Shown here in pieces: positions 6,784-62,457 of a stretch of DNA of 64,000 nt. A program made the position numbers and the translations under genes. Position 1 is the stretch's first letter. Each line of letters opens with the position of its first letter. Below the pieces are notes generated by a model. It was given only the letters and a program-made list of their open reading frames with translations, had not been told where the DNA came from and did not search any database. The DNA comes from Aliiruegeria haliotis (GTDB lineage: Bacteria; Pseudomonadota; Alphaproteobacteria; Rhodobacterales; Rhodobacteraceae): positions 1-64,000 of the forward strand of contig NZ_PVTD01000015.1 of NCBI RefSeq assembly GCF_003003255.1, in the 5' to 3' direction.

Positions 6784-7283
6784 CTCTTCTCCGTCTTCGG
6801 GCCTGGGCCCGCCTGTTCGAATGCTTCGCCCAGGGCATGCCGGGCAATCTCCATATCTTCATTCACGCTTCCGCCGCTGATGCCGATGGCACCGCACAGC
6901 CGGCCCTTTCGGGCAAAGGGGATGCCACCGCCAAAGACCACCACACGTCCACCCAGATTGGCCTCCACGCCAAAGAGCATCTGGCCGGGTGCGGCCAGTT
7001 GGCCGAGCGCGTCCGTTCCCATGCGGAAGGCCGCCGCCGTCCATGCCTTGTCCGTGGCAAGCTGGGCCGAGGCCGGAAGGATGTTCGCCATACTGTGAAA
7101 CAGGATCTGGCGACCTTCCCGATCGGCCACGGACACCGCGACCGGCACGCCGATAACGCGCGCATGCTCCTCGGCCCGGGCCGCGATCCTACAAGCCTCG
7201 GACAGCGTGACATCTCCGGAATCCGAATACAGTGACGCGAGTGCTTCACCGAGAAGCCGGTCAATGATCGCTGCCGTCTGCAT
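6780..7283 (-). CDS. GlcG/HbpS-family protein (PduO C-terminal-like)
   Basis: 167 residues from the ATG at 7283, which has AAGGAGG upstream; an in-frame extension to 7349 has no ribosome site. The domain shows the family pattern VSVADREGRQILFHSM, DKAWTAAAFRM and VVFGGGIPFARKGRLCGAIGISGG. GlcG/HbpS proteins, also found as the C-terminal domain of PduO and alone in several microcompartment loci, can bind haem; their role inside the compartment is not established. It is coupled to the downstream PduP gene (6780-6783 overlap) and follows the vertex-protein gene by 22 bases. Confidence 0.8.
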   Translation of the reverse strand: MQTAAIIDRLLGEALASLYSDSGDVTLSEACRIAARAEEHARVIGVPVAVSVADREGRQILFHSMANILPASAQLATDKAWTAAAFRMGTDALGQLAAPGQMLFGVEANLGGRVVVFGGGIPFARKGRLCGAIGISGGSVNEDMEIARHALGEAFEQAGPGPKTEKR

Positions 7284-7305
7284 CACGCCCTCCTCCTTGC
7301 CCCGC

Positions 7306-7572
7306 TCAATGCGTCTCGACCGTGTCCACGATGCCGACGATGCTGGCATCCGCGACCGACCCGTCGAGCGATTCCGTCATCCGTGCCGCGCTGCTGGTGG
7401 TCACGATGACGATCTCGCCATGCCCTGCACCAACTGTGTCGACAGCAATCTCTGTGAAGCCGTCAGGCTCCGTTTTCTCGTTGAGCCGGGCCACGATCAG
7501 CAGTTTCGAGCCCGAGAGGCTCTGGTCCTTGCTGGTGGACACCACGGTTCCGATAACGCGTCCCAGATGCAT
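7306..7572 (-). CDS. eutN: BMC-P vertex protein (EutN/CcmL family)
   Basis: 88 residues from the ATG at 7572, preceded by a GAGAGGAAG stretch; the frame is open further upstream but only as a shadow of the next gene. MHLGRVIGTVVSTSKDQSLSG, the central GFTEIAVDTVGAGHGEIVIV and the C-terminal VADASIVGIVDTV are the EutN/CcmL fold. Members form pentamers that close the twelve vertices of a microcompartment shell. It is the only BMC-P gene in the locus. It lies 10 bases after the flavoprotein gene. Confidence 0.93.
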   Translation of the reverse strand: MHLGRVIGTVVSTSKDQSLSGSKLLIVARLNEKTEPDGFTEIAVDTVGAGHGEIVIVTTSSAARMTESLDGSVADASIVGIVDTVETH

Positions 7573-7582
7573 CTTCCTCTCC

Positions 7583-8371
7583 TCACTCCCGCACGAGCTG
7601 AACGCTGCGCGCCCGCAATTCTTCCGCCGCCAGCGGTGTGACCAGCACGTTCCTGGCAAGGCGAAGTGTGTCTGACGCGACGGTCTTCGCCTCGTTCCAA
7701 CCAAAGACCCGCCGCTCGGCACGTTCGACCGGTGTGGACGGAACAACCGGCGCTGGCATTGCCGAGCCAGACACGGCTTCGGCCAAGCGCGAAGCCCAGA
7801 CAAATTCGACACCGAAGGCTTCAAGTCGCTCCAATTGCCCGGCCAGCATGGATTGATAGGCGGGCGTGCCGCCAAGGCCGCGCGCCAGCCGTTCCCGATT
7901 CGCCGGGCAGCATCCGTCACGTGCGGCGATGACCCGCTTGCCGCGCTCCAAGGCGCCAGACAGCAGCCCCGGCAATGCGCTATCGGCCAACCCGCCGGCC
8001 ACGCGCGCCGCCAATGGCAGGCTCAGGGCCGGGACCAGCACCAACGCATGACGCATCAGGCAGGCCTCGATCTCTTCAGGCGACAGCGCGGCATCGCTTG
8101 GCACCAAGGGTTCAACCCCGCCGGCCAGCCCGCGCAACTGCTCGGCGCCGATCAGCCCACCGGCACACGTGCTACGCCAGATCTCCAGCCGCCAGCCCCT
8201 GGCCGCAAGCTGCGCCATCGAGGCGGTCGCCCCGCGCAGGCCCAGATCCGTTCCCGACAGCAACACGAGCGCCGAACGCGCGCGTATCCGCAGCCGCTCC
8301 ACGATGCGGTCCGAGAGCAGATCCAGCAGCGCCTTCTGCACCAACAGGTCGAGATCCGGGCGGTCAGACAT
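7583..8371 (-). CDS. Flavoprotein-fold protein of the microcompartment locus
   Basis: 262 residues from the ATG at 8371, which directly follows the EutJ stop at 8373. A hydrophobic strand ARSALVLLSGTDLGL, the ARGWRLEIWRSTC helix-strand pair and MRHALVLVPALSLPLAARVAGG resemble the flavoprotein (PpcDC/dihydromethanopterin reductase) fold annotated in glycyl-radical and Pdu-like loci. A flavin redox or cofactor-recycling role is inferred; no substrate can be named. The position between EutJ and the vertex protein marks it as part of the compartment operon. Confidence 0.65.
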   Translation of the reverse strand: MSDRPDLDLLVQKALLDLLSDRIVERLRIRARSALVLLSGTDLGLRGATASMAQLAARGWRLEIWRSTCAGGLIGAEQLRGLAGGVEPLVPSDAALSPEEIEACLMRHALVLVPALSLPLAARVAGGLADSALPGLLSGALERGKRVIAARDGCCPANRERLARGLGGTPAYQSMLAGQLERLEAFGVEFVWASRLAEAVSGSAMPAPVVPSTPVERAERRVFGWNEAKTVASDTLRLARNVLVTPLAAEELRARSVQLVRE

Positions 8372-11721: not shown

Positions 11722-12846
11722 TCACTCCTGTCCGACCAACCTGGCGAGCAGGGCATCCAGCTCGGCATGTATCGGTTTGCGTGGGTTGCTGGCCGTGCAG
11801 GCATCGGCCAGGGCTGCCGCGGCGATCTCGGACCGTCGGCGGCTGAATTCTGTCAAATCGCACGCCATCGCCCGGAGCGAAGTGGGCATACGAAGTTGCC
11901 TGTTGAGCGTCTTGATCTCGCGGATCAGCGCGCAGACACCGGCCCGGGTGCTGGGCACATCGAGCCCGAGGTGACGGGCGAGGCGGGCGTAACGTTGTGC
12001 GGTCGCGGGGTGTTCGGCATTCCAGGCGATCACGACAGGCAACAGCAGCGCATTGGTGCGGCCATGCACAAGGTGCAGCGTCGCGCCAAGCGCATGGGCC
12101 AAGCCGTGGTTGATCCCGAGGCCCGCAGCCGTGAATGCCAACCCGGCAAGGCAGGAGCTTTGATGCATCGCATCGCGCGCTTCCATGTCATCACCATTGT
12201 TGTAAGCGCGAGGCAGATAGGTGAATGCGAGGTCTAGCGCCTTCTCGGCACAGGCATCGCTGAAATGGGTGGCGCCGGTCGAGACAATCGCCTCGATGGC
12301 ATGGGTGATCACGTCCATGCCTGTATCGGCGGTTACGGATGCAGGCGCAGTGCGGACCAGCTCGGGGTCGAGCAGGGCGATGTCCGGAACGAGATCATTG
12401 GAAATCAGTGGGAACTTTCGGCCGCGTTCCGGGTCGGAGACGACTGAGAAAGCCGTGACTTCGGATCCGGTGCCGCTCGTGGTCGGAATGGCGACGAGGC
12501 GGATCTGTCGCTCCGGCGCCATTTCCCGAAGGATTGCCAGCATCGCCTTGGCCGCGTCGATGGGCGAGCCGCCGCCGAGGCCGATCAGCACGTCCGGCTC
12601 GAAGGCTCCGAACTGTCGGGCACCGGCGGAGACCGTCTCAAGCGGGCTTTCGGGAACGGCGTTGGCAAAGACCTCGACGGCGCATCCGTCGAGAAAGCCG
12701 CGCACCCGGTCCAGCGCTCCAGAGGAGGCCATGAAGGCATCGGTCACGATCCCGACCCGCTGACCGCGGAAATCGTGCAGGCGCTCCAGCAATCCTGGGC
12801 CGAAGACGATTTCAGTCTTTGGAAAGAAGCTATTGTAGCGGGTCAT
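11722..12846 (-). CDS. pduQ: Iron-containing alcohol dehydrogenase (PduQ-like 1-propanol dehydrogenase)
   Basis: 374 residues from the ATG at 12846. Reduces propionaldehyde to 1-propanol and so recycles NADH to NAD+ for PduP inside the compartment. NAD-binding LIGLGGGSPIDAAKA and IPTTSGTGSEVTAF are present. Metal ligands are visible in DVITHAIEA and GINHGLAHALGATLHLVHG. It lies directly after the dehydratase, separated by a stem-loop at 12966-12989. The protein is typical in length for group III alcohol dehydrogenases, and no encapsulation helix is apparent. Confidence 0.88.
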   Translation of the reverse strand: MTRYNSFFPKTEIVFGPGLLERLHDFRGQRVGIVTDAFMASSGALDRVRGFLDGCAVEVFANAVPESPLETVSAGARQFGAFEPDVLIGLGGGSPIDAAKAMLAILREMAPERQIRLVAIPTTSGTGSEVTAFSVVSDPERGRKFPLISNDLVPDIALLDPELVRTAPASVTADTGMDVITHAIEAIVSTGATHFSDACAEKALDLAFTYLPRAYNNGDDMEARDAMHQSSCLAGLAFTAAGLGINHGLAHALGATLHLVHGRTNALLLPVVIAWNAEHPATAQRYARLARHLGLDVPSTRAGVCALIREIKTLNRQLRMPTSLRAMACDLTEFSRRRSEIAAAALADACTASNPRKPIHAELDALLARLVGQE

Positions 12847-12965
12847 CTGGTTTCCTGTGCGGGCCTGTTCGGGCCTGTGTGTGATCGGGTTTCGGTGTGT
12901 CGGTGGACGCGACCACCAACGGCCAAGTGAGGGGAGGCAGCCGTTGGTGTCGCGACCGTGGAGGC

Positions 12966-12989
12966 CCCGCAGGTTTGAGAACCTGCGGG
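12966..12989 (-). terminator. Intercistronic stem-loop after the dehydratase gene
   Basis: A perfect 10-bp inverted repeat (CCCGCAGGTT / AACCTGCGGG) with a 4-base loop lies 14 bases beyond the dehydratase stop. There is no T-run after it, so it looks like an mRNA-stabilising or attenuating hairpin rather than a full terminator. It would allow higher yield of the enzyme message than of the downstream shell genes. Confidence 0.6.
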
Positions 12990-13003
12990 ATCCCTTGGGA
13001 GGA

Positions 13004-15544
13004 TCAGAACTTCTGTTCTGTGCGGCTGATGATGTCGTCCTGCACTTCCTTGGCGAGCACGACGAACTGAGCGCTGTAGCCGGCCACGCGGACAACGAGG
13101 TCCTTGTGTGCATCCGGGTTCTTCTGCGCTTCGATCAGCGTGTCCCGATCGATCACGTTGAACTGCACATGCATGCCCTTGTGATCGAAGTAGGAGCGCA
13201 CCAGCGAGGCAAAGTTCTGCAGACCTGAATCTCCTTCGAGTGCGGAGGGCAGGAACTTCTGGTTGTAGAGCGTTCCGTTGGAGGCAATGAAGTGGTCGAG
13301 CTTGGCCACCGAGTTGGCAGCTGCCGTCGGCCCGTTCACGTCCTTGCCCTGACGCGGCGAGACACCATCGGCGAGCGGCGCCTTGGCCGGGCGGCCATCG
13401 GGCAGCGCCGAGACATCCTTGCCGAAGAGCACGTTGGCCGAGACCGGGTAGATGCCGGCCTGGAACTGACCACCGCGCGGGTTGGTGTATTTCTCCACCT
13501 CCTTGCAGTAGGTCTGCGCGCAGCGACGGGCGATGAGGTCGACGGCGTCGATGTCGTTGCCGAAAGCCGGGGCGCTGTCGAGCAACCGCTGGATCTGGGC
13601 AAATTTCGACGTATCTGCCGGGCCGCCCGTGTCGTTGGCCAGCGTGGCGTAGACCTCGTTCTTCAGCGTCGCCACATCGGTGGAGCCACTATGGGCCAAC
13701 ACCTTCTGGACAGCGGCGTAGACACGCTCCTCGGTCATGTCACCTTTCATTGCCGCCGCGGGGTTCGCCTCGCCCACGGCCATGCCAAAGTTGGCATCCA
13801 GAGCCTCCTTCAACTCGGCGATGGAGATCTTCTTGTCGTCAAAGACGAACTTCTTCATCGCGTAGACCGAGTCGCCGGTGTCGGCGACACCGAAAGCCTG
13901 TGGGCCGGTGAAATTGTAGATCGCACCACCTTCCTGCACCGACATGCCGCGTCCCATGCAATCGTCGACCATGGCCGACTGGAAGGGCAGCGGGGCGCGC
14001 TCGGCATGGGCGAGGTCGACACAGTTGTCGGCTTCGACCAGGTAACGGACGAAATACGACATCTGGGCCTGGTAGGCTTCGTAGAAATCGTCGATCGACG
14101 CCCACTCGGTCATCGGCTTGGTCACCGGACCGAGCTGCTGATCGCCAACCTTGCCGGCGTTCATGGTGATTTCCATCACCTTGGCAACGTTGAAGAAAGC
14201 GGCGTCATGCCAGCCTTCGGTCTTGTGGATTGCCTGCGGCTCCACGCAACCGACGATCCCGTAGTCGCGGGCATCTTCAAGCGAGACACCACGGTTTTGC
14301 AGCGATGGGATAATCACCTCGTCATTGTAGACCGCCGGCACACCAAGCCCGAGCCGCACCACTTCGGCGGCGCGATAGAGGAAGGCATCCGGAGAGCCCT
14401 GCCAGACACGGATCGAGAAGGACGGCGCGGGCAGACGGACATGGCTAACCGCCTCCATACACATGTAGGAAACCTCGTTGGTGGCATCGAGCCCGTCCGG
14501 GGTCTGGCCGCCGACGCAGAGGTTCTGGAACACCGCGTAACCGGCAAAAGCCTGGGCCGAAACCTCGTCGCGAGTCTTGTTCACGTCGTTCAGCTTAATC
14601 CAGATACAGTCGATCAGTTCCTGCGCGAAGGCGCGGTCAATGCTGCTGTCGGCCTGAAGGAACGGGTTCATGTACTGGTCGAACCGGCCCGGAGAGATCG
14701 AGTGACCGCTGGATTCGATCTGCAACATGCACTGAACGAACCACATCGCCTGGCAAGCTTCCCAGAAGGTCCGGGCACCGTGCTCGGGCACACGGGTACA
14801 GTTCTTGGCGATCTGTTCCAACTCCGCCTTGCGGGTCGGGTTGCTTTCGGCTTCCGCCAGTTCGGCGGCCTTGGCGGCATAACGATGAGCGAAGTTGATC
14901 GCGGCGCTGTAGCTGACGATGACCGCGTTGTAGAATTGCTCCTTGCGGATCGAAGCCGGGTCCATGGGATCGAGCTTCTCAAGCTCCATCACGGCATCGG
15001 CGATGACACCTCGGAAACCTTCGTCGAGGATCTTGCCATAGTCGACGCAGACATGGCCGACGCCACCGTAGAAGTAGTTACCGACCGTGAAGACACCGGC
15101 TGCCTGGCAATCCTTGGCTTCCTTGGACATGTAGGACGACGCGAGATCGCTCGTGGTCTTGCCGGGCCAGTATTTGAAGGCCTCGTGCAGTTCGGCGGCG
15201 GTTTCCTTCGGGATCTCGAACGGGTCGGCCACGCGATTCGCCATGGTGTCGAACTCGGCCTCAACCCAGTCGAAGGAGAATTCCGGGCAGATCTCGGTCG
15301 AACGCGGGTTCTTGGTGATGGAGCCGACGATCAGTTCATCGTCGCGGATCGTCACCGGAAGCTCGTTGAAGATCTTCTCGGCCGCCTTGGCGCGCCGTGT
15401 GATCGCAGGCAGGCCTTCGCTTGCCTTGAAAGCTTCGGTGACCAGCACTGCGCGCTCGGACTCCACATGGGGCCGCGCGTTGAGGATCTGGTCCTTCAGA
15501 CGCTTGATGCGGTCTGTCGGTTGGGAAAATCCCTTCTCAATCAT
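13004..15544 (-). CDS. Glycyl-radical 1,2-propanediol/glycerol dehydratase
   Basis: 846 residues from the ATG at 15544, which has GGAGGAAACC immediately upstream; an ATG 8 codons earlier lacks this. With this start the residues known from Clostridium butyricum glycerol dehydratase fall at identical numbers: His164, Ser282, Cys433 and Glu435 (GCVEP) and Asp447. The radical glycine (VRVAGYSAQF) is Gly822 instead of 763, because about 59 residues are inserted near 587-645. The signature therefore fits a diol dehydratase, not CutC or PFL. The product from 1,2-propanediol is propionaldehyde. The protein has no N-terminal extension, so the insertion (with helix EERVYAAVQKVLAHSG) may carry the encapsulation signal; that is inferred. 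Confidence 0.95.
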   Translation of the reverse strand: MIEKGFSQPTDRIKRLKDQILNARPHVESERAVLVTEAFKASEGLPAITRRAKAAEKIFNELPVTIRDDELIVGSITKNPRSTEICPEFSFDWVEAEFDTMANRVADPFEIPKETAAELHEAFKYWPGKTTSDLASSYMSKEAKDCQAAGVFTVGNYFYGGVGHVCVDYGKILDEGFRGVIADAVMELEKLDPMDPASIRKEQFYNAVIVSYSAAINFAHRYAAKAAELAEAESNPTRKAELEQIAKNCTRVPEHGARTFWEACQAMWFVQCMLQIESSGHSISPGRFDQYMNPFLQADSSIDRAFAQELIDCIWIKLNDVNKTRDEVSAQAFAGYAVFQNLCVGGQTPDGLDATNEVSYMCMEAVSHVRLPAPSFSIRVWQGSPDAFLYRAAEVVRLGLGVPAVYNDEVIIPSLQNRGVSLEDARDYGIVGCVEPQAIHKTEGWHDAAFFNVAKVMEITMNAGKVGDQQLGPVTKPMTEWASIDDFYEAYQAQMSYFVRYLVEADNCVDLAHAERAPLPFQSAMVDDCMGRGMSVQEGGAIYNFTGPQAFGVADTGDSVYAMKKFVFDDKKISIAELKEALDANFGMAVGEANPAAAMKGDMTEERVYAAVQKVLAHSGSTDVATLKNEVYATLANDTGGPADTSKFAQIQRLLDSAPAFGNDIDAVDLIARRCAQTYCKEVEKYTNPRGGQFQAGIYPVSANVLFGKDVSALPDGRPAKAPLADGVSPRQGKDVNGPTAAANSVAKLDHFIASNGTLYNQKFLPSALEGDSGLQNFASLVRSYFDHKGMHVQFNVIDRDTLIEAQKNPDAHKDLVVRVAGYSAQFVVLAKEVQDDIISRTEQKF

Positions 15545-15572
15545 GGTTTCCTCCAGGCGATTTGCCATTTTC

Positions 15573-16163
15573 TCAGGTCAGGGTTTCAGGTGCGATGCGC
15601 TGCACGAAGCCGCGCAGCAGTTCGGGGTGCCCCGGCCAGGCCGGGGAGGTCACAAGGTTGCCGTCGGTGACGGCCTGCTCGGGCGCGACCTCAACGAACT
15701 GGCCGCCAACGGCGGTGATTTCAGGAGCCACTGCCGGATAGGCGGTGAGCCGGCGCCCTTGCAGGATGCCAGCGGCGGCAAGGATCTGTGCGCCATGGCA
15801 GATCGCAGCGACGGGGCGTGCATCGGCGTCGAAGGCGCGCACGATATCGAGCACCCGCTGGTCAAGCCGCAGATACTCGCAGGCCCGCCCACCGGCGATA
15901 TAGAGCCCCGCATAATCGTTCGGCTCCACCATCCCGAAGTCGGCAGTCAACCGAAACAGGTGGCCCGGTTTCTCGCTGTATGTCTGGTCGCCTTCGAAAT
16001 CATGGATCGCCGTCTTGACGACATCGCCCTTGCGTTTACCGGGGCAAACGGCATCGACGTCCATTCCCAGCATGATCATCGCCTGAAACGGCACCATCAC
16101 TTCATAATCTTCGGAATAGTCTCCGACGATCATCAATATGCGGGCTGGTTTCGAGCAGGTCAT
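15573..16163 (-). CDS. DJ-1/PfpI-family protein
   Basis: 196 residues from the ATG at 16163; the longer frame to 16229 lacks support. It is a DJ-1/PfpI glutamine-amidotransferase-like fold with the nucleophile elbow [14 protein letters not shown] (Cys after the isoleucine) and acidic [17 protein letters not shown]. It is the first gene of the block, 28 bases before the dehydratase. DJ-1 homologues occur in other glycyl-radical loci; aldehyde or glyoxal detoxification or protein repair is suggested but unproven. Confidence 0.85.
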
Positions 16164-52023: not shown

Positions 52024-52072
52024 TGGTTGCGGGGGTAGGATTTGAACCTACGACCTTCAGGTTATGAGCCGA
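52024..52072 (-). other. 3' half of a tRNA-Met gene, likely attachment site of the island
   Basis: On the minus strand the sequence runs from a CAT anticodon (52064-52066) through a variable arm and T-loop GGTTCAAATCC to CCCCCGCAACCA at 52024. The 5' half does not follow in the adjoining DNA. Such a fragment arises when a tyrosine integrase inserts an element into a tRNA gene: the fragment stays at the far end from the restored tRNA. The element should therefore extend rightward from 52073. Confidence 0.8.
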
Positions 52073-52270: not shown

Positions 52271-52513
52271 ATGTTGCGTCGTTTATTGGGGGATGCGGTC
52301 ACACTTTGCAGTTGTGGCCATTCCTGCGACGAGAGCGCCTTCAAAGCGATGGCCTGGAGGCCGAAACGTGGAGAATTTTCGGATCAAGAGACGTTCCGTT
52401 TCGCCGGTGAAACAAACCCTGACGAAATGGCCGAATTTCCGGAGGGATCGAATGCTCCCTTGCACATCTTCAGATCGGAACGCATGATCAGCCCGAAGAG
52501 GCGAGACTGTTGA
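52271..52513 (+). CDS. Possible small protein coupled to the winged-helix gene
   Basis: 80 residues, with three cysteines close together (CSCGHSC) near residue 13-19. The frame ends with TGA at 52511-52513, which overlaps the TTG start of the next gene (TTGA), an arrangement typical of coupled genes. No ribosome site is clear and no family is recognised. It might be part of the defence operon or only a chance frame. Confidence 0.4.
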   Translation: MLRRLLGDAVTLCSCGHSCDESAFKAMAWRPKRGEFSDQETFRFAGETNPDEMAEFPEGSNAPLHIFRSERMISPKRRDC

Positions 52514-53157
52514 ATAACCTACATAAATCTACGGACCGGCAAAGTGCTGTTCGGCTACTAGCCTGCATAGACGCAGGTGGCCACGAGCCGCTTCACGGCC
52601 AATGGGATCCGGAAGTTGTCGCCGTGCTCGAGGGGCAAGCGCGTCTGCAGGCATTCGACTTTTGGATGCGGTATCCGGATTACCTCGCGAACGAACTGCT
52701 CGATGAGTTCGAAGGTGGCGGCGGGAACGATCTGATCGAGATCGCAAAAAAAATCTTTGACGATCGGGAACCAGACCTGAGACATCTGCCGATGGTTCGC
52801 TATCATTTCGGAGCCTTCGAGCCACTCGACAACGCGCTGGCGATCCTCCGAGCTGGTGATCTTATTCGCATCAGGCGGACAGGTCAGCCAGGCCATGTGC
52901 GGCAACATATCTACCTTCTCACGCAAAAAGGGCGTTCCGCGATGGCAGAATTGGCGGCGGCGGCACCGGAACTCGCGTGGTATCGTGAGCGGGCGAAACT
53001 CGTTGCGCGTGTCGCCGGCAGGCTAGGAGGCACAGCCTTAAAAGATCGTCAGTACCTCCAGGAAGAGTACGCCGAGACCGACCTGTCGCGCCCGATTCAG
53101 CCGATAGCTGAGCGCGTAAAGAAGCGGTTGAGTGACCTGTTAGAGGAGAGCAGCTGA
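52510..53157 (+). CDS. Winged-helix protein, candidate ABC-3C middle component
   Basis: 215 residues from a TTG at 52510. A helix-rich N-terminus is followed (about 100-150) by a winged-helix pattern DNALAILRAGDLIRIRRTG and QHIYLLTQKGRSAMAEL. Middle components of ABC-three-component defence systems are small winged-helix proteins placed before the ATPase, which fits this position and size. Its stop overlaps the ATPase start (TGATG at 53155-53159). The assignment is by architecture, not by a sequence match. Confidence 0.65.
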   Translation: MNNLHKSTDRQSAVRLLACIDAGGHEPLHGQWDPEVVAVLEGQARLQAFDFWMRYPDYLANELLDEFEGGGGNDLIEIAKKIFDDREPDLRHLPMVRYHFGAFEPLDNALAILRAGDLIRIRRTGQPGHVRQHIYLLTQKGRSAMAELAAAAPELAWYRERAKLVARVAGRLGGTALKDRQYLQEEYAETDLSRPIQPIAERVKKRLSDLLEESS

Positions 53158-55084
53158 TGAGTGGAAGCTGGCTGGAAGAGATCTCCGCCAAGACAAACCT
53201 AACGCTCGAGCAGGCCAGTGTTCGGCTTCATCGGTGGGGGGTTGTTCCTGATCGACCGGCCCGTCCCGCCCGGTCAATCGTGATAGAGCGTATTGCCTTT
53301 TCAGGCGAAAAGAAGGGCAAGACGACGGGAACAATCGACTTCGAATGGGCCGATGTCGGCCCCGGGGTTTGGGCCGTCACTAGCGATCGCAACTTGGTCG
53401 GCAAGTCCACGGTGTTGGAGGTCGTGCTGTGGTGCCTCAGAGGCTCGCCCAAGAACCTTCAAGCCGATGTGCGTGGCTGGCTAGCCAAGGTTCGCTTGGA
53501 TTTTGCAGTAGACGATGAAAGTTACCGAGTCGCTTTCGAATTGAAGGATGATCGGCCTGTTGGAAGGCTTGAGCGTCGCGCACCGAACGGCACGTATCAC
53601 CAGCTCGACGAATTCGCTTCAGATGATGGTTTCGAACTCGTTGTATCGCGTTTCATGATGGACGCGCTCGATCTCGACCCATTGCCAGCCATGCAGGGTC
53701 GCGACGGGGAGAAGGAGGTGGTTCAGCATGGATGGGCCGCGCTCTCAAATGCGTTTTATTTCGGAGGTGACCACAAGATTCTTCTGGGAGATACGTCCAT
53801 GGCTGGGCTCCCAGCCAGAATGCTCCAGATGTATATCGGGCTACCATGGGCCAGCACGAAAACCTTCGTTGCCACTGCCAGCAAGGAGATCGAGCAGAAG
53901 CGCGCAAAGGCAGAGAAGGCGCTGGAGCGTTCGAGATCGGAGGCGCAGGTGGCCCGCGCGCGCCTGGAGGCGGAACTGGCTGCAGCGCAAAAAAACCTAG
54001 CGGACCTGCCTTCGGAGACGACTTCGGCTGAGGCCCTGAACAAGGCCGGCGAGGCCGTTGCGGAGGCGACGCGCCGGATGTCGGAGTTGCAGGCTCGTGC
54101 AGCGGACGTCGAAGCTGATGCAGATCGTGTGCGCCGTGTCGCGATGGATGACGAGCGCGCCGTACGGGATCTTCGTGAAACGATCGTGGCCACCCAGTTC
54201 TTCAACGGATTGAACCCGGAGTGCTGCCCCCGGTGCGAAACCCATGTTACGAAAGCCCGAGTAAGGGCGGAGACAACAGAACTCGTCTGCTCACTGTGCG
54301 CCGAGAGTATTCCGGAGGATCGCTTCGAAGACTTAAGCGAGACGCTCCACGAAGCGGAAGCCCGTGCAGTCGCTTCGAAGGCTCCGCTGACCGTGCAGCA
54401 GAGGATGCAAGAGCCTCCAAAACAGCTGCTCAAATTGCGACGAGATCACTCACGGATGCGCGAACATCCCTAGATGAGGCGACAAAAGGAGCGGATTTCT
54501 CCGCGCGCCGGAAAGCCGAATTGACCGTCGCCCGCCTTGAAGGCGCGCTTGAAGAGCGAAGCGCAATCCCTGAGGAATCCGAGGCTCATCCAGATGCCGC
54601 GCTGATTAAGGCGGCGGTGAAGGAAACCGAAAAGGCCTACAAGGCTGGGCGGACGGATATTCTCAATGCACTGAATGACGAGATCTTTCTTCTCGGCCGG
54701 CGATTGGGCATCGAAGCTTTGGAAAAGGTCGAGTTGAATAGCAATAGCTCTCTTAGAGTTTGGAAAGGGGGAGCCGCCACGTCCTTCTCCAGCGTGACGG
54801 CCGGGGAACGTCTAAGACTTCGTCTTGCGACTGCGATCGCACTTCTGCGAGTCGGGCGTCAGATGGGAATTGGTCGCCATCCGGGTTTGCTGATCATCGA
54901 CTCACCTGCATCTGAGGAAGTGAACGAACTCAACCTTCAAGCGCTTCTAGGCGAACTTCGCATTATTGCCAAAGATACGGAGGGGCTTCAGGTATTCGTG
55001 GCTAGCGCGAACCCAGACGAGATTGTGCAGGCGCTTGGCCAAGAGTGCTGCCGCATTGCCCGAGGCGAGAGCTATGTGTGGTAG
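53157..55084 (+). pseudogene. SMC/Rad50-like ABC ATPase with zinc-hook cysteines, frameshifted near 54380
   Basis: The N-terminal half (frame from 53157) carries a Walker A VGKSTVLEVV (preceded by a variant loop SDRNL), a long coiled coil from about 240, and the zinc-hook pair CCPRC and CSLC around residues 362-388. The C-terminal half, in the next frame and ending at 55084, has the ABC signature SVTAGERLRLRLA and Walker B GLLIIDSP. The coiled coil runs from HEAEARAVASK into SADRAAEDARASKTAAQ across a one-base loss near 54380. Together about 640 residues. A real frameshift, sequencing error or recoding are all possible. Confidence 0.75.
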
Positions 55085-55105
55085 CCACCTTCGCCGGCGG
55101 TCCAA

Positions 55106-57019
55106 ATGAGTGTGACCGCCGCACTCGAGGCGAGCTTGCGAGCCAGACAGGTACCAACTCTGGTCGAATTGGGTGGCGTTCCCGCGATCCTCGCCGATCG
55201 GGACGCCATCATTGATAGTCCGTTTTTCGACATTCTGTTGCAGAGCATTGGTGCCGGGGGATCCGAAGATCACGCAGCCCTGCTCGATTTTGTGATCGAC
55301 GGGTTTCTGGCGCAACAAAAGCCACTCGTCTTCCGAGACGCGGTGAACTCTCTCCTCGCCAATCGCGACCTGCGACAGATCACACGCCCGAAACTTGTAG
55401 GTGCGCTGCAAGCTCGGATCGATGGCAAAGCCATGGACGACCAGGCGTTGCTGGCCGCATTCGCGTTGGAGGGCCTGTTTCAACTGGCGTTGGATGACGA
55501 TAGCACGCGATGGCGTACGCTCATTGTCTTGAATGACTTGCAGAGCGATGATCCAGGCATCTTCGTGCGACATGCGGCGAAAATTGCCGGGGTAGCGTAC
55601 CATCACTGGAGAGAAACAAGCCTTCGCGATGCGTTGGTTCGTCTTCAGGCGAATGACGAGGCAGAGGATGAGGCGACTTTCGAACTGGCGATGATTGCCT
55701 TCGCGGATGCCTTGAATGGCCACACCGAGGCTGATGTCGGCACAGGCATGCGCGAGGCACGCGGGCTCTTCAAGAGTGTCTTGCGCCGCAATCCAGCTCG
55801 GCTTGACGCCTCAATATACGTTGCCGTCATCGACGTGGTCCTCGCCTTCACTACGAAAGTGAGCGGAGGGCTTGGAGTTCATGTGGAAACCCTCGGTCGA
55901 TTGCTCGCGGAGCGGCATGATCAGCTTGGAATGGGCGACGTTCCGGGTTGGTTGGAGCCGCGTGTTGATCGCGAAGTCGAATGGTGGCAGCTCCTTTGTG
56001 TGATGCGATCGGTGGCTTCCAGCATCTGCCGACCAAGTTGGCTTAACGCCGGTCGCGTGATGGAGCAGGTCCTTGCGGTGTATGACGCCGAACAAACGAT
56101 CGCCGTCGGCGGAGGATTGAATATCCTATTTGCACCGAAGATCGAAGCGGCCTTCATCCGAGAACGAGGACTCGCGGGTCACCTCCATGAACTTCTGGCC
56201 GACAGCGAATGGGCTCCCGAATATCGCCCAATTGCTGAGAAGCTTTGTGAACGAATTGCGCTCAGCGCCGCAGGAGATCCACCATCGCGACTAGAGTGGG
56301 AGGGTGGCAATTTCCCGCGGCTCAGCGCCATCCTCCAAGATTCTGACGCTTCGAGCCGCATTCCAGACGATATGGCCGTCGTTCTGGAGAGGTCTCTTGC
56401 CGACAAAAATGCTGCGGAAAGCGGGAAGCACCTGCCGGACGTCCAGAAGATCTGCAAGCGAATCTCTGGGGATTTCGTCGACGCAATCGACTACCGAGGC
56501 GAAATTAAGCATGCCTACGACCAACTCATTCGGCAGGTTGTTGTCTTCTGCGAGGATAGGCAGCATGCCGACTTGGCGCAACTCGGCGAGCGGGGAGCTT
56601 ACCTTCGAAGTGCAGACGCTGTGGAAAACGATCTGCAGCGTGATCTGAGAGAATGGCTTCGCGGAAACATGTCGCCGGTGAAGGTTCTTCCGGAGGTGCC
56701 CGGAATCGCCGCAGGGCGGTCAGATCTTTATGTGGACTTCGGAAATACACAATTCATCATAGAGTTGAAACGACACTTTGGAGCGGTCGATGCTGACGTG
56801 GCCCGTACCTACCGGGCACAGGCGGTTGCCTACCAGGCCACTGGGCCGAAGCTAGGGGTGCTCGGGATCCTCGAACTCGCCGAACGCCCTGGTCCTCCCC
56901 CGAGCCTGACCGAATGTGTATGGACAGAGGCCTATGTACCTGAAGGCAGTCATCTCACCCGTCATCTCGTTGTCTTTCGAGTGCCAGGGATGCTGAAGAC
57001 GCCATCCAGACTTAAGTAG
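55106..57019 (+). CDS. Large effector protein with C-terminal PD-(D/E)XK nuclease
   Basis: 637 residues. Residues 1-520 are helical without a recognisable domain. The last 120 residues have a nuclease core: GRSDLYVDFG (Asp), FIIELKRH (E-x-K) and YRAQAVAYQ (helix with Gln), the order of PD-(D/E)XK enzymes. It starts 21 bases after the ATPase frame ends. In ABC-three-component and Lamassu systems a nuclease effector partners the SMC-like ATPase; this pairing suggests abortive or DNA-degrading defence. Confidence 0.75.
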   Translation: MSVTAALEASLRARQVPTLVELGGVPAILADRDAIIDSPFFDILLQSIGAGGSEDHAALLDFVIDGFLAQQKPLVFRDAVNSLLANRDLRQITRPKLVGALQARIDGKAMDDQALLAAFALEGLFQLALDDDSTRWRTLIVLNDLQSDDPGIFVRHAAKIAGVAYHHWRETSLRDALVRLQANDEAEDEATFELAMIAFADALNGHTEADVGTGMREARGLFKSVLRRNPARLDASIYVAVIDVVLAFTTKVSGGLGVHVETLGRLLAERHDQLGMGDVPGWLEPRVDREVEWWQLLCVMRSVASSICRPSWLNAGRVMEQVLAVYDAEQTIAVGGGLNILFAPKIEAAFIRERGLAGHLHELLADSEWAPEYRPIAEKLCERIALSAAGDPPSRLEWEGGNFPRLSAILQDSDASSRIPDDMAVVLERSLADKNAAESGKHLPDVQKICKRISGDFVDAIDYRGEIKHAYDQLIRQVVVFCEDRQHADLAQLGERGAYLRSADAVENDLQRDLREWLRGNMSPVKVLPEVPGIAAGRSDLYVDFGNTQFIIELKRHFGAVDADVARTYRAQAVAYQATGPKLGVLGILELAERPGPPPSLTECVWTEAYVPEGSHLTRHLVVFRVPGMLKTPSRLK

Positions 57020-57073: not shown

Positions 57074-57101
57074 CGCCACCCTGCGCCACCCCGCCACCCC
57101 T
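57074..57101 (+). repeat. GCCACC-rich repeat upstream of the integrase gene
   Basis: 27 bases (57075-57101) are identical to 59774-59800 in the stem-loop repeats before alpA. A partial opposite arm (GGGTGGCGCG) lies about 25 bases upstream. It sits 69 bases ahead of the integrase start. Confidence 0.65.
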
Positions 57102-57169
57102 TGCTTTGTGCATCACTTGATATCGGCGCGAATCTACGCGTCATGTCAGAGACAAAGGAGGCGAGTTGC

Positions 57170-58432
57170 ATGGTCAACCGACTGCGATTGAATGAGAAAG
57201 CCGTTCGGGATGCCGAACCGGCAGTGGGGCGGGACTACCAGATCTTCGACACAGAGGTTCGCGGGTTCGCGGTCTGCGTCTACCGCTCAGGGAGTCGGGC
57301 GTTCACGCTGGACTACCGCCATGCCGGTCGGCAGCGGCGGATGACGATCGGGCGTTGGCCAGAATGGTCGACAACTGCGGCGCGGGAGCGGGCAAAGGAC
57401 CTGCGGCGGGAGATCGACGCCGGGTCGGACCCGCTCGCCCAGCGCGAACTGGGACGCGAGGCGCCGCGGTTTCAGGATCTGATCGACCGCTATGTCGAGG
57501 TGCACCTGCCGAACCTGGCGCCGACCAACGCCTCGGACCAAAAGTCGATGCTGAAGAAGCTGGTGGCCCCCGACTGGGGCAACCGGCTTGTGACCGAGAT
57601 CACGCCCTACGATGTCGAGAAGCTGTTGAACAAGATCGCCGCCGGTCGGTCGCGGCCTTCCAAGACAAAACCCAACAACCGGGCCCGCAAGCTGCAGGGG
57701 TCGAAACCCACGCCGATCCGGGCCAATCGGACCGGTGAAGTGCTGCGGAAGATGTTCACCTATGCCCAGAGCTGGGGTTGGAGGGAGGACAATCCGGCCT
57801 CTGGCTTTCGCCGCCGTATCGAGAACCCGCGCGAGCGGTTCCTGAGCCAGCAGGAGATCCGCAAGCTGGCTGCAGTGCTCGATGCCGCCGAAGATCGCCG
57901 CGCAGCCGACATTATCCGGATGTGCATGCTGACGGGCGCCCGGGTTGGTGAGGTCCGGCAGGCACGGTTCGAGCATTTCAATCTCGAGCACCTGAGTTGG
58001 TCGAAGCCGGCCAGCATGACCAAGCAGCGCAAGATCCACCGCCTGCCGATCTCGGATGAAGCGGCGGCCATCGTGCGCCAGCGCCAGATGCTGGTGCCCC
58101 GTGGGAGCCCATGGTTGTTCCCCGGGGACGTGCCGGGCCAGCCAGTGCAGGAAATCCGTCGGTTCTGGATCCACATCCAGAAGGAGGTGAACATCCCAGA
58201 CGTTCGCATCCACGACCTGCGCCACACGTTCGCTTCTCTGCTGGTCAGTGGCGGCGCCTCGCTGGAAATGATCGGCAAGCTGTTGGGGCACAGCCAGGTG
58301 CAGACAACTCAGCGCTATGCCCACCTGATGGACTCGCCGCTGCGCGCCGGTGTCGATGCTGTGGCAAGCGCCTTCCGGCCGCGGCCGAAGCTGGTGCATG
58401 ACGCCGAGGAGGAGGCACGGAGGACGGGTTGA
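57170..58432 (+). CDS. int: Tyrosine-type integrase (P4-like, DUF4102)
   Basis: 420 residues from the ATG at 57170, chosen for AAGGAGG upstream. The N-terminal DUF4102 domain has FDTEVRGFAVCVYRSGSRAF and RRMTIGRWPEWSTTAARERA. The catalytic domain shows Arg in LTGARVGEVRQARF, HDLRHTFASLLVSGG, LLGHSQVQTTQRYAHL with the Tyr nucleophile. It is probably the recombinase that used the tRNA-Met site. The defence operon lies between it and that site. Confidence 0.95.
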   Translation: MVNRLRLNEKAVRDAEPAVGRDYQIFDTEVRGFAVCVYRSGSRAFTLDYRHAGRQRRMTIGRWPEWSTTAARERAKDLRREIDAGSDPLAQRELGREAPRFQDLIDRYVEVHLPNLAPTNASDQKSMLKKLVAPDWGNRLVTEITPYDVEKLLNKIAAGRSRPSKTKPNNRARKLQGSKPTPIRANRTGEVLRKMFTYAQSWGWREDNPASGFRRRIENPRERFLSQQEIRKLAAVLDAAEDRRAADIIRMCMLTGARVGEVRQARFEHFNLEHLSWSKPASMTKQRKIHRLPISDEAAAIVRQRQMLVPRGSPWLFPGDVPGQPVQEIRRFWIHIQKEVNIPDVRIHDLRHTFASLLVSGGASLEMIGKLLGHSQVQTTQRYAHLMDSPLRAGVDAVASAFRPRPKLVHDAEEEARRTG

Positions 58433-59600: not shown

Positions 59601-59720
59601 TCGTTCGACGGCGCTGGGCAGCATTCACAGGTGCGTAAATCCTGAAGCTCGACCCCGCCCGGCCCGCATTTGGACCTCCCATGTCGGGCAGCCACCACAG
59701 CGAACGGCCTCAAACAGGCT

Positions 59721-59826
59721 CTTTCGCCCGAAGATCAAGAAAACAAGGGGTGGCAAGGGGGCGGCGTTCCAATGCCACCCTGCGCCACCCCGCCACCCCT
59801 GCTGATCTGTTTTCGCTGTTTCACGC
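59721..59826 (+). repeat. Direct repeat copy B with 18-19 bp stem-loop
   Basis: Arms 59747-59765 (GGGGTGGCAAGGGGGCGGC) and 59774-59791 (GCCACCCTGCGCCACCCC) pair around an 8-base loop. It ends 38 bases before the alpA start. Part of it equals the repeat before the integrase gene. Confidence 0.75.
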
Positions 59827-59863
59827 CATCCGCCCACGCCGGGCGGCAAACAGGAGGACAGCA

Positions 59864-60109
59864 ATGCTTCAGCAATCAAACAACACGGAAAAGGCAAATC
59901 CGAGGGTGCTTTCAGGCTGGATCAGCCGCGGAGAGCTCGCCACCGAACTTGGGGTGTGCGTCGATACGCTTGGGCGCTGGGAAGCCCGTCGGACAGGGCC
60001 GCCCTGCGTGCGCGCGGGCCGAAAGGTGCTCTACCGCCGGGCGGTCGTTCAGCGTTGGCTCGAGAACCAGGAAACCCCGCCGACCAGCAAGAAGCGGGGG
60101 CGGAAATGA
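59864..60109 (+). CDS. AlpA-family excisionase/regulator
   Basis: 81 residues from the ATG at 59864 with CAGGAGGA upstream. A MerR-like helix-turn-helix: ISRGELATELGVCVDTLGRW, then VRAGRKVLYRRAVVQRWLE. Such proteins activate integrase or act as excision factors. Its stop overlaps the next gene (ATGA), beginning a chain of coupled genes. Confidence 0.88.
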   Translation: MLQQSNNTEKANPRVLSGWISRGELATELGVCVDTLGRWEARRTGPPCVRAGRKVLYRRAVVQRWLENQETPPTSKKRGRK

Positions 60110-60360
60110 TGCGGGCCGCGTCACTGCGCCGCCAGCCGTACGCCCAGCGCCGCGAGGATCCGTCTCCAGCCTGGGCGGTATGGCGCGACGCCCGCCTGCG
60201 GGAAGCACTCGATGTTGCCGCTGATGTCGCCCATCACCGGGAAAGCCCCGTCCTGTTGGCCTATCGGGTCATCCAGGCGAATAGCGCGGAGCGCATCGAC
60301 CGGATCAGGGCGCATGTGTTCGCAACCCTCCTGCAAAAGAAACTGGAGGGGCGGCTATGA
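60106..60360 (+). CDS. Small element protein of unknown function
   Basis: 84 residues, starting at the ATG of an ATGA overlap with alpA (60106-60109). It is Arg- and Ala-rich and mostly helical (DARLREALDVAADVAHH, then ERIDRIRAHVFATLLQKKLE). The family is unknown. It overlaps the VRR-NUC gene by 4 bases at its end. Confidence 0.7.
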   Translation: MMRAASLRRQPYAQRREDPSPAWAVWRDARLREALDVAADVAHHRESPVLLAYRVIQANSAERIDRIRAHVFATLLQKKLEGRL

Positions 60361-60767
60361 CGAAGCGCTGTCATCCCGAGGCCGACACCCAGCGCGCCAT
60401 CGTGCACGCCCTGCGAGTCGTTCTGCCCCACGGTTCCATCGTGCACCACTCGGCGAATGAGGTGACTTCCGGCAACCGAAGCGCTCGATCCCGCCAGGCG
60501 ATCCTCCAGGGCATGGGCGTTCATCGTGGCTTTGCCGATCTAATCGTCCTCTCCGGCGGCCGGGTGCTGTTCCTTGAGGTCAAGAGCCAGACCGGGCGCC
60601 TCAGCCCGGCACAGGCGGATTTTCGGGATGTCGTTCGCGACCAGGGCTTCGCATGGGCCCTGGTGCGGTCGGTCGACGATGCGCTGGGCGCGCTGGCCGA
60701 GCACGGGTTCACAGCAAGGGCGAAACCACCCTGCGTGCAATTTCGATCCAGGAGGGTCGCGCGATGA
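60357..60767 (+). CDS. VRR-NUC domain nuclease
   Basis: 136 residues. VRR-NUC pattern: EADTQRAIVHALRVVLPHG, GMGVHRGFADLIVLSGGRVLFLEVK (Asp and E-x-K, given as GFADLIVL and LFLEVKSQ) and LSPAQADFRDVVRDQG. These stand-alone nucleases are common in phages and satellites and may cut Holliday junctions or act in replication. Four-base overlaps with both neighbours. Confidence 0.9.
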   Translation: MTKRCHPEADTQRAIVHALRVVLPHGSIVHHSANEVTSGNRSARSRQAILQGMGVHRGFADLIVLSGGRVLFLEVKSQTGRLSPAQADFRDVVRDQGFAWALVRSVDDALGALAEHGFTARAKPPCVQFRSRRVAR

Positions 60768-61750
60768 GCCACAATGCCACCAACTGGGCCATTCAACAGC
60801 GCGGGCTGAAACCCACTACCAGGATCGTGCTTTGGCATCTGTGCGATCGGCACAATCCCGATTTCGGCTGCTTCCCCTCCCAGCACCAGCTGGCGCATGA
60901 CTGCGAGATCAGCCGATCAACCCTGAACGTGCATCTCGATCGGCTTGAGACAGCCGGTCTGATCCGTCGGGTGACCTGTTTCGATCCGGTCACCCAGCGC
61001 CGCAGGCCAACACGGTACTTCCTCGGGTTTGAAGCACCGCCCTCGCCGGAGAAAACAGACCCATGTCCGGAAACCGGAGACGGGCTTGAAGGGCTGGAAA
61101 CACCATCCGCCCCAGCAGGTGAATGTCGGCCAAAAACGGTGGATGCGGCAATGCCATGTCCGGATATCGGACACGGAGCCATGTCCGATTTTTGCGCAGA
61201 GCCATGTCCGGAAAAAGACCAAAGCCGTGTCCGGAATCTGGACAATAACCCTGTAAGGGAACCTTTAAGTAAACCAGTAAAGGAGGAGGAGGACGCGCAG
61301 GCGCGCGATGCCATTTTCGATGAGTTTTTTGGGAAGCTGCTCGGGGCGCTGGGTTTCACTCCGGAAAGCGCGCTTCCGGGCTGGTGGCAAGGCTGGCCAG
61401 CCCGCGAACATGTGCGCCGCTGGCGCGACGACCTCCGTCTGAGCGAAAGCAAGATCCTCGAAGTTGCGGCCGCCACCCGCCGTGACCATCCCGCCCCGCC
61501 GGACGGCCCCAAAGCGCTGGACCGTGCGATGGAGCGAGCCTCGGCCCCGACGTCGTCGAAAGCAGGGAAACGCAGAAAGCGCGTGGCCGCCCCACCACCC
61601 ACCGAGGATGAGCTGGCTGGCTTCTATGCCGACATGGTCAACGCCGATGGCTACCTGCCGCCCAGCGCCATCTCCAGCCGGGTGTGCGAGATGCTGCTCG
61701 TCCGCGGACTGGTGACACCAGAACGGCTCCGGATGCGGGGTGTGCTATGA
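60764..61750 (+). CDS. Winged-helix replication initiator, lambda-O-like
   Basis: 328 residues from the ATG at 60764, with CCAGGAGGG upstream and an ATGA overlap. Residues about 10-90 are a winged helix like that of plasmid and phage initiators (TTRIVLWHLCDRHNPDFGCF, SQHQLAHDCEISRSTLNVHL, LETAGLIRRVT). A low-complexity linker (about 95-170) follows, then a C-terminal domain. The linker-coding DNA contains five iteron-like repeats and then AT-rich DNA, the layout of the lambda O gene with its internal origin. Initiator function is inferred from this. Confidence 0.75.
   Translation: MSHNATNWAIQQRGLKPTTRIVLWHLCDRHNPDFGCFPSQHQLAHDCEISRSTLNVHLDRLETAGLIRRVTCFDPVTQRRRPTRYFLGFEAPPSPEKTDPCPETGDGLEGLETPSAPAGECRPKTVDAAMPCPDIGHGAMSDFCAEPCPEKDQSRVRNLDNNPVREPLSKPVKEEEDAQARDAIFDEFFGKLLGALGFTPESALPGWWQGWPAREHVRRWRDDLRLSESKILEVAAATRRDHPAPPDGPKALDRAMERASAPTSSKAGKRRKRVAAPPPTEDELAGFYADMVNADGYLPPSAISSRVCEMLLVRGLVTPERLRMRGVL
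61063..61240 (+). repeat. Iteron-like repeats and AT-rich stretch inside the initiator gene (candidate origin)
   Basis: The core GCCATGTCCGGA recurs starting (at ATGTCC or GTGTCC) at 61063, 61156, 61181, 61203 and 61227. The last four are 22-25 bases apart, close to two helical turns. They fall in different reading frames of the gene, so the conservation is of DNA. At least two copies are dyads (GTCC-N7-GGAC). An AT-richer segment follows at about 61241-61285. Confidence 0.65.
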
Positions 61751-62457
61751 CCGTCCATTCCCGTTTCAATCGCAACAGCGCCGGGACCAGACGAGCGCTG
61801 GGCGTGCAGGCGCTCCTAGAATGGGCCTTCCGGGTCGAAAAGGCACAGCTGGAGCTCCCCATGCCGCCCGACGAGGTCAGCGAAGGTCACGGCTTCGGCC
61901 TCGAATACGTCCTGCTCCAGCGTGCACAACTCGGGTGCCAGGTTGACGGTGGTCGCTACAAGCCGGAGGCCAGCACCCACGAGGATGCCGAAACCATCGC
62001 GGCGATCGTCGGGGGGCTGCCAGATGATCTAGGCGGCCGGCGCATGGCTATCCGCATCGCCGAACTCGCCCGCGCCGGGCTGACACCGGACTGGATTCCC
62101 TGCGCTGTCCCGCGCTGCGTTCCGGTAGAAACCCGGCGCAATCAGCATGGCGAGCGGTCCGTCAATGTTGTTGTCGCCACCGAGCGTGTTCTCTACCGGG
62201 GCCGCTGGCGGACCGTCGATGTGCTGGCCTGTCCGGTGAGGTGGGTGCCGCATCCGGATCAGATCGAGGGAGCGAGACGGGCCTACGTGGATTGGTGGTG
62301 GGCGCTGGGCTGGATCCGGGACGGGTTGGCAACCTCCAGGTTGCTGAGAGAGATCGACGTCTCTGCGGCGATGCCAAAGTTCGAACCGTGGAATGTTCGA
62401 GGGCCAAGTGGATCGACGCAACGTAAGGTCATGCACCCGGCCAAAATGGGTCGGTAA
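61747..62457 (+). CDS. Element protein of unknown function after the initiator
   Basis: 236 residues from the ATG at 61747, in an ATGA overlap with the initiator gene. A hydrophilic protein with conserved-looking segments (RVEKAQLELPMPPDEVSEG, VPRCVPVETRRNQHG, RVLYRGRWRTVDVLACPV). I do not recognise the family. Its coupling suggests a role with the initiator, perhaps like a phage antitermination or replication accessory protein. Confidence 0.75.
   Translation: MTVHSRFNRNSAGTRRALGVQALLEWAFRVEKAQLELPMPPDEVSEGHGFGLEYVLLQRAQLGCQVDGGRYKPEASTHEDAETIAAIVGGLPDDLGGRRMAIRIAELARAGLTPDWIPCAVPRCVPVETRRNQHGERSVNVVVATERVLYRGRWRTVDVLACPVRWVPHPDQIEGARRAYVDWWWALGWIRDGLATSRLLREIDVSAAMPKFEPWNVRGPSGSTQRKVMHPAKMGR

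Follow-up and report, generated by a model that had tools for sequence, protein, structure and literature searches.

What do the overlapping genes that lie between a tRNA fragment and an integrase gene in Aliiruegeria haliotis encode, and could their products still work together? We analysed a 64,000-nucleotide stretch of this genome (positions 1 to 64,000 of contig NZ_PVTD01000015.1), hereafter the window. A preliminary description had proposed that a small winged-helix protein, a zinc-hook SMC-like ATPase and a 637-residue protein with a C-terminal nuclease form an anti-phage operon of the ABC-three-component (ABC-3C) or Lamassu type, carried as cargo, and could not place the proteins in a named subtype. 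Profile searches against Lamassu models supplied the names: all three proteins gave near end-to-end matches to the PADLOC models PDLC03853 (LmuA), PDLC03864 (LmuB) and PDLC03872 (LmuC), with LmuB of the window matching in two frames. Pfam and NCBIfam named none of the three above a cut-off. On these sequence matches, the three-gene operon lmuC-lmuB-lmuA is a Lamassu phage-defence system of a family that is already catalogued. Very likely, the window copy is a Lamassu operon (ABC-3C, DdmABC-like) carried as cargo by a phage-like element that occupies a tRNA-Met site, and a frame change in lmuB has left it inactive or almost so.

An operon of lmuC, lmuB and lmuA

The features discussed below are as follows.

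52025 to 52069, no strand assigned: 45 bases identical to the 3' end of tRNA-Met(CAT), a probable remnant of the attachment site at the left edge of the carrier
52510 to 53157, + strand: lmuC, 215 aa, TTG start, middle component; PADLOC LmuC E 2.3e-82
53157 to 54473, + strand: lmuB, first piece; PADLOC LmuB E 1.8e-126, model 6-445 of 657
54419 to 55084, + strand: lmuB, second piece, in another frame; PADLOC LmuB E 1.9e-71, model 433-657
53157 to 55084, + strand: lmuB as a broken whole
55106 to 57019, + strand: lmuA, 637 aa; PADLOC LmuA E 5.3e-155
57101 to 58432, + strand: tyrosine integrase of the carrier; Pfam Phage_integrase E 8.8e-24, PHROG integrase E 2e-71
59681 to 62457, + strand: phage-type genes by PHROGs matches (excisionase-like HTH, endonuclease-type, replication-initiation O-like, and two of unknown function)

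The operon has the features of Lamassu and other ABC-3C systems, namely an LmuB ATPase of ~650 aa with a short coiled coil, LmuC and LmuA in the same operon. The small winged-helix protein is LmuC, the middle component that some Lamassu systems lack; its AF2 model (pLDDT 88) is compatible with a winged helix. The overlapping-gene operon proved real, but lmuB lies in two frames, and we rejected an 80-residue Cys-rich frame at 52271, offered earlier as a possible fourth member. This frame looks like a chance ORF: no match to it in the loci compared fell below E 0.41, and an ORF as long arose in 27% of 1000 simulated stretches. Low G+C content was also considered as a sign of foreign DNA and was dropped because the 49-52 kb region upstream is equally low (55-56%, vs 54-59% in the operon).

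The operon lies in a phage-like carrier

The operon sits where it had first been placed, between a probable attachment-site remnant and an integrase gene. The 45-base fragment at its left exactly matches an intact tRNA-Met gene on contig C4 of the same genome and a third copy on contig C19. The first 98-193 bases to the right of the window fragment are 81% like those beside the C19 copy and 73% like those in a kin element. On C19 the fragment occupies positions 191-235 of the locus taken, and the 81% likeness spans the adjoining 98 bases; a sister element may occupy the same kind of site there. The phage-type replication genes at 59681-62457 lie in a stretch in which we identified no structural genes up to 64000, so the carrier may be either a satellite or a prophage. 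Its right end could not be located before position 66287, where the contig stops.

Three near-identical, GC-rich direct repeats of ~26 bases occur at 57075-57101, about 59550 and about 59774. They precede the integrase gene and the excisionase-like gene, matching copies stand just before the integrase gene in kin genomes, and they are possible arm-type integrase sites.

The site had been called a usual place for cargo. Three same-genus stretches with the same kind of integrase do carry other genes beside it, as read from their translations: five ORFs in one (L143), where they separate a tRNA fragment from the integrase gene, metabolic-looking genes in the second (L142) and a GroEL-like gene in the third (L144). 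Neither L142 nor L144 yielded a tRNA fragment, so the cargo-place reading has direct support from one of the three.

Relatives are widespread and patchily distributed

A scan of genome contigs with an LmuC alignment gave 114 relatives, and we retained the best 80; a scan of viral contigs gave three. The viral contigs were identical to parts of three genomic loci (L057, Paracoccus sanguinis; L062, Altericroceibacterium endophyticum; L072, Aureimonas sp. Leaf427). These three loci therefore belong to predicted proviruses, and the total of 83 loci comes down to 80 distinct ones. By organism names, the best 80 of 114 come from Pseudomonadota, Actinomycetota, Acidobacteriota, Planctomycetota, Bacteroidota and Spirochaetia, the Spirochaetia locus (L116) consisting of lmuC and a stub of lmuB only. 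Of the 83 loci, 65 (64 of the 80 distinct ones) have the complete set, with every gene at full length and all read from one strand in the order C-B-A. The remainder include loci at contig ends (L067, L080, L095, L133, L135) and split or partial genes; in L114 a transposase follows 163 codons of lmuA. A lone lmuC, with neither lmuB nor lmuA, was seen at 7188-7835 of a 15.8-kb contig of Rhodoblastus sphagnicola (L070).

LmuA relatives were found on 37 plasmid records, 11 of them covering at least 80% of the query; phage records gave no LmuA match, and a single LmuA query gave none in genome contigs or viral contigs. Among six plasmid neighbourhoods, lmuC and lmuB precede lmuA in five, and the sixth (L051) holds the end of lmuB and a split lmuA. 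The nearest LmuA relatives among the loci compared are 54-60% identical (L053-L057, from Sulfitobacter, Roseovarius, an uncultured Rhodobacteraceae bacterium and Paracoccus). LmuA matches occurred in five of 295 genomes of the window's family, its own included. With the PADLOC LmuA model (E 1e-10), the window genome stood alone among 385 of its class, and the LmuB model matched in nine of 398 genomes of its phylum. One of the five family matches, L022 (7794-8987), had the look of a domain swap: the C-terminal 221 residues of an LmuA, 73% identical to the window protein, stand in frame behind a protein that is YHS-like by translation. No lmuB or lmuC was found within the 17 kb taken, and we read the locus as a deletion relic of the same system.

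The preliminary description had held that homologues never lying near defence genes would refute its reading, and this was not what we saw. Flanks of sufficient length were available for 54 loci; among 73 of their 479 flanking ORFs, taken from 11 of these loci, some matched genes of defence systems already known (GajA of Gabija, type II methyltransferase, type IV restriction), in per-family counts that overlap and have no background control. Three consecutive ORFs of ~270-290, 356 and 304 codons recur before lmuC in L074, L077 and L078 and after lmuA in L110.

LmuB lacks the catalytic glutamate and changes frame in the window

The anatomy ascribed to the ATPase in the preliminary description is present, in a gene that is split. 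The first piece of lmuB encodes the variant Walker A SDRNLVGKST, a coiled coil and the CPRC/CSLC zinc hook; the second encodes the returning coil, the ABC signature region and the Walker B LLIIDSP, and runs to the end of the gene. Past the zinc hook, at about 54380-54400, the conserved sequence switches frame, and the two Walker motifs are therefore read in different frames.

Intact copies exist: in five relatives one uninterrupted frame of 683-754 codons spans the entire model, and 72 of the 83 loci (best 80 of 114 LmuC matches plus three viral) have a full-length lmuB. Rhodovulum strictum DSM 11289 (L063) and Sulfitobacter sp. M05 (L053) are examples of environmental organisms with an intact relative. 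In 73 LmuB rows (two duplicates), the hook cysteines, the N-x-x-G-K of Walker A and the Walker B Asp were kept in all 73. The residue after this Asp was Ser in 71 rows, Ala in two and Glu in none, and the window piece likewise has Ser at the position of the catalytic Glu. Substitution of this Glu is reported as general for LmuB.

Five of the 83 loci have lmuB in two pieces (L067, L083, L092, L102 and L109); outside them it is split in the window, L023 and L047 (a Roseovarius plasmid). The "partial" lmuB genes of L094 and L122 are single frames that narrowly miss the full-length cut-off. Other split genes among the 83 loci are lmuA in L083 and L122 and lmuC in L055, and lmuA is also split in L051, outside this set. 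These numbers lean toward excess damage to lmuB; they are small, and we claim no bias.

Alternative explanations

How is the frame change in lmuB to be read? If it were a mere sequencing or assembly error, the operon would be intact and active. The genome is a draft in 33 contigs, both lmuB pieces match the model with their motifs kept and no other stops, and lmuA and lmuC are undamaged, all of which would fit an error. Against this stand the copies of lmuB in two frames elsewhere in the family and a completeness rating of 99.97%, which has little bearing on single bases; we regard an error as possible and rather unlikely. A programmed change, by ribosomal frameshifting or by separate production of two cooperating halves, could appeal to the position of the break, which leaves the whole hook in the N-terminal half and Walker B in the C-terminal half, and to the two-piece genes in the seven other loci named above. 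The breaks in those copies, however, fall elsewhere, at model positions ~46, 117-156, 238, 278, 297, 566 and 597, compared with ~420-428 in the window, a scatter that points to independent decay or sequence errors rather than to a programmed shift. Moreover, between 54297 and 54520 the C-half frame of the window gene lacks any ATG, GTG or TTG codon. Because the breaks vary in place and lmuB is full length in those 72 loci, we reject programmed frameshifting, and consider any form of two-part expression very improbable. The window copy is a probable relic, with a broken sensor gene, lmuB, and an effector gene, lmuA, that is still open; as a whole, the operon is a decayed member of a known defence family.

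A different objection concerns function, in that the operon might serve housekeeping DNA repair of the Rad50/SbcC type. LmuB shares ABC and zinc-hook anatomy with Rad50 and has weak PDB matches to Rad50 (best E 0.001). A match to a housekeeping repair family had been named in advance as grounds for abandoning the defence reading, but the Rad50 model scored 19.1 bits against LmuB, far below its cut-off of 1087. The patchy distribution of LmuA in the family and the mobile context of the operon (plasmids, viral contigs and phage-type carrier genes) also speak against repair, the least probable of these alternatives. Our preferred reading remains a Lamassu defence operon.

LmuA has a predicted C-terminal nuclease

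The AF2 model of LmuA (pLDDT 86) has a helical part at ~1-390, a low-confidence linker, helices at 421-501 and a predicted nuclease at ~507-637. Residues E507, D540, E553, K555, Q572 and Y576, which we take to form a PD-(D/E)XK motif pattern, occur without exception in the 70 LmuA rows (one duplicate) that were selected for reaching the C-terminus. Motif conservation and predicted topology together point to a PD-(D/E)XK-type nuclease, in line with the nuclease first ascribed to the end of this 637-residue protein. Foldseek found nothing at E 0.001 or better with either LmuA or LmuC, whole-protein LmuA searches being dominated by matches to the helical part; a profile of the nuclease domain found no PDB sequence; sequence profiles found no solved Lamassu chain; and Pfam named nothing useful in 53 LmuA members.

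The motifs, at 507-576 of 637, place the effector domain C-terminally behind a helical N-terminus, whereas an N-terminal effector is a usual, non-defining layout for Lamassu. A nuclease of this type fills the C-terminal slot in 72 of 77 loci with LmuA (one duplicate). One exception is the LmuA of L103 (Actinoplanes sp. TFC3; 12578-15573), in which the nuclease profile finds nothing, Pfam names none of the pieces, and the terminal 183 residues share 42% identity with a domain encoded by the neighbouring gene. By eye, this C-terminal domain presumably carries nucleotide-cyclase-like motifs. Exchange of effectors in the slot rests on this single case, which is contested because the PADLOC LmuA model spans the whole protein, aligning over residues 6-675 of 676. 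Tentatively, the branch may be reversed with respect to the reviewed layout, with LmuA docking by its N-terminal helices on an LmuB whose hydrolysis is crippled by the Walker B change from Glu to Ser, and with its C-terminus serving as an exchangeable effector slot; we hold this somewhat less probable than its contrary. A literature search that did not include the key structural papers found no Lamassu with a C-terminal effector, and we do not claim that the layout is unpublished.

A model for intact relatives

Three papers on Lamassu describe LmuB and LmuC as sensors of DNA ends or structures that switch on LmuA (PMC10586767, PMC12904381, PMC12799240). By analogy with the Lamassu literature, LmuB, as a small Rad50-like ATPase, would dimerise through its zinc hook and survey DNA, together with LmuC, for ends or odd structures made by phages or plasmids. 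ATP binding would engage the LmuB heads, and the substitution of the catalytic Glu would be expected to slow hydrolysis, making engagement a nearly one-way switch. LmuA, docked via its N-terminal helices, would then be released or rearranged, and its PD-(D/E)XK domain might cut DNA, so that the phage is stopped or the cell killed. The conserved active-site residues and the predicted fold of LmuA are compatible with such cleavage; docking, activation and an abortive outcome are suppositions of the model. In the window copy, the sensing step of LmuB and LmuC should fail as a consequence of the frame change, and this copy is probably dead.

Comparison with known systems

Wadjet (JetABCD) has an SMC-like ATPase and a nuclease effector in common with the window operon (PMC10586767), but the first LmuB piece reached only E 0.13 against a JetC model, and neither LmuA nor LmuC matched any Jet model. 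Lamassu type II adds LmuC, as does the window operon, and a representative, the operon of Janthinobacterium agaricidamnosum DSM 9628, protected E. coli from phage (PMC8565338); this operon may or may not be of the same branch. DdmABC, or Lamassu with a Cap4 effector, shares a Rad50-like LmuB with an altered Walker B Glu, LmuC and a nuclease effector (PMC10586767). There are two differences: Glu is replaced by Gln there and by Ser in the window family, and the effector is N-terminal there, whereas the window family has a C-terminal PD-(D/E)XK-type domain behind helices. More generally, that review places LmuA effector domains N-terminally and docking C-terminally (PMC10586767). What was unrecognized at first pass is now placed in a catalogued defence family, with counts that describe the Lamassu branch of the window operon: the zinc hook is kept and the catalytic Glu is lost in every row examined, and the predicted nuclease lies at the end opposite to that in the reviewed layout.
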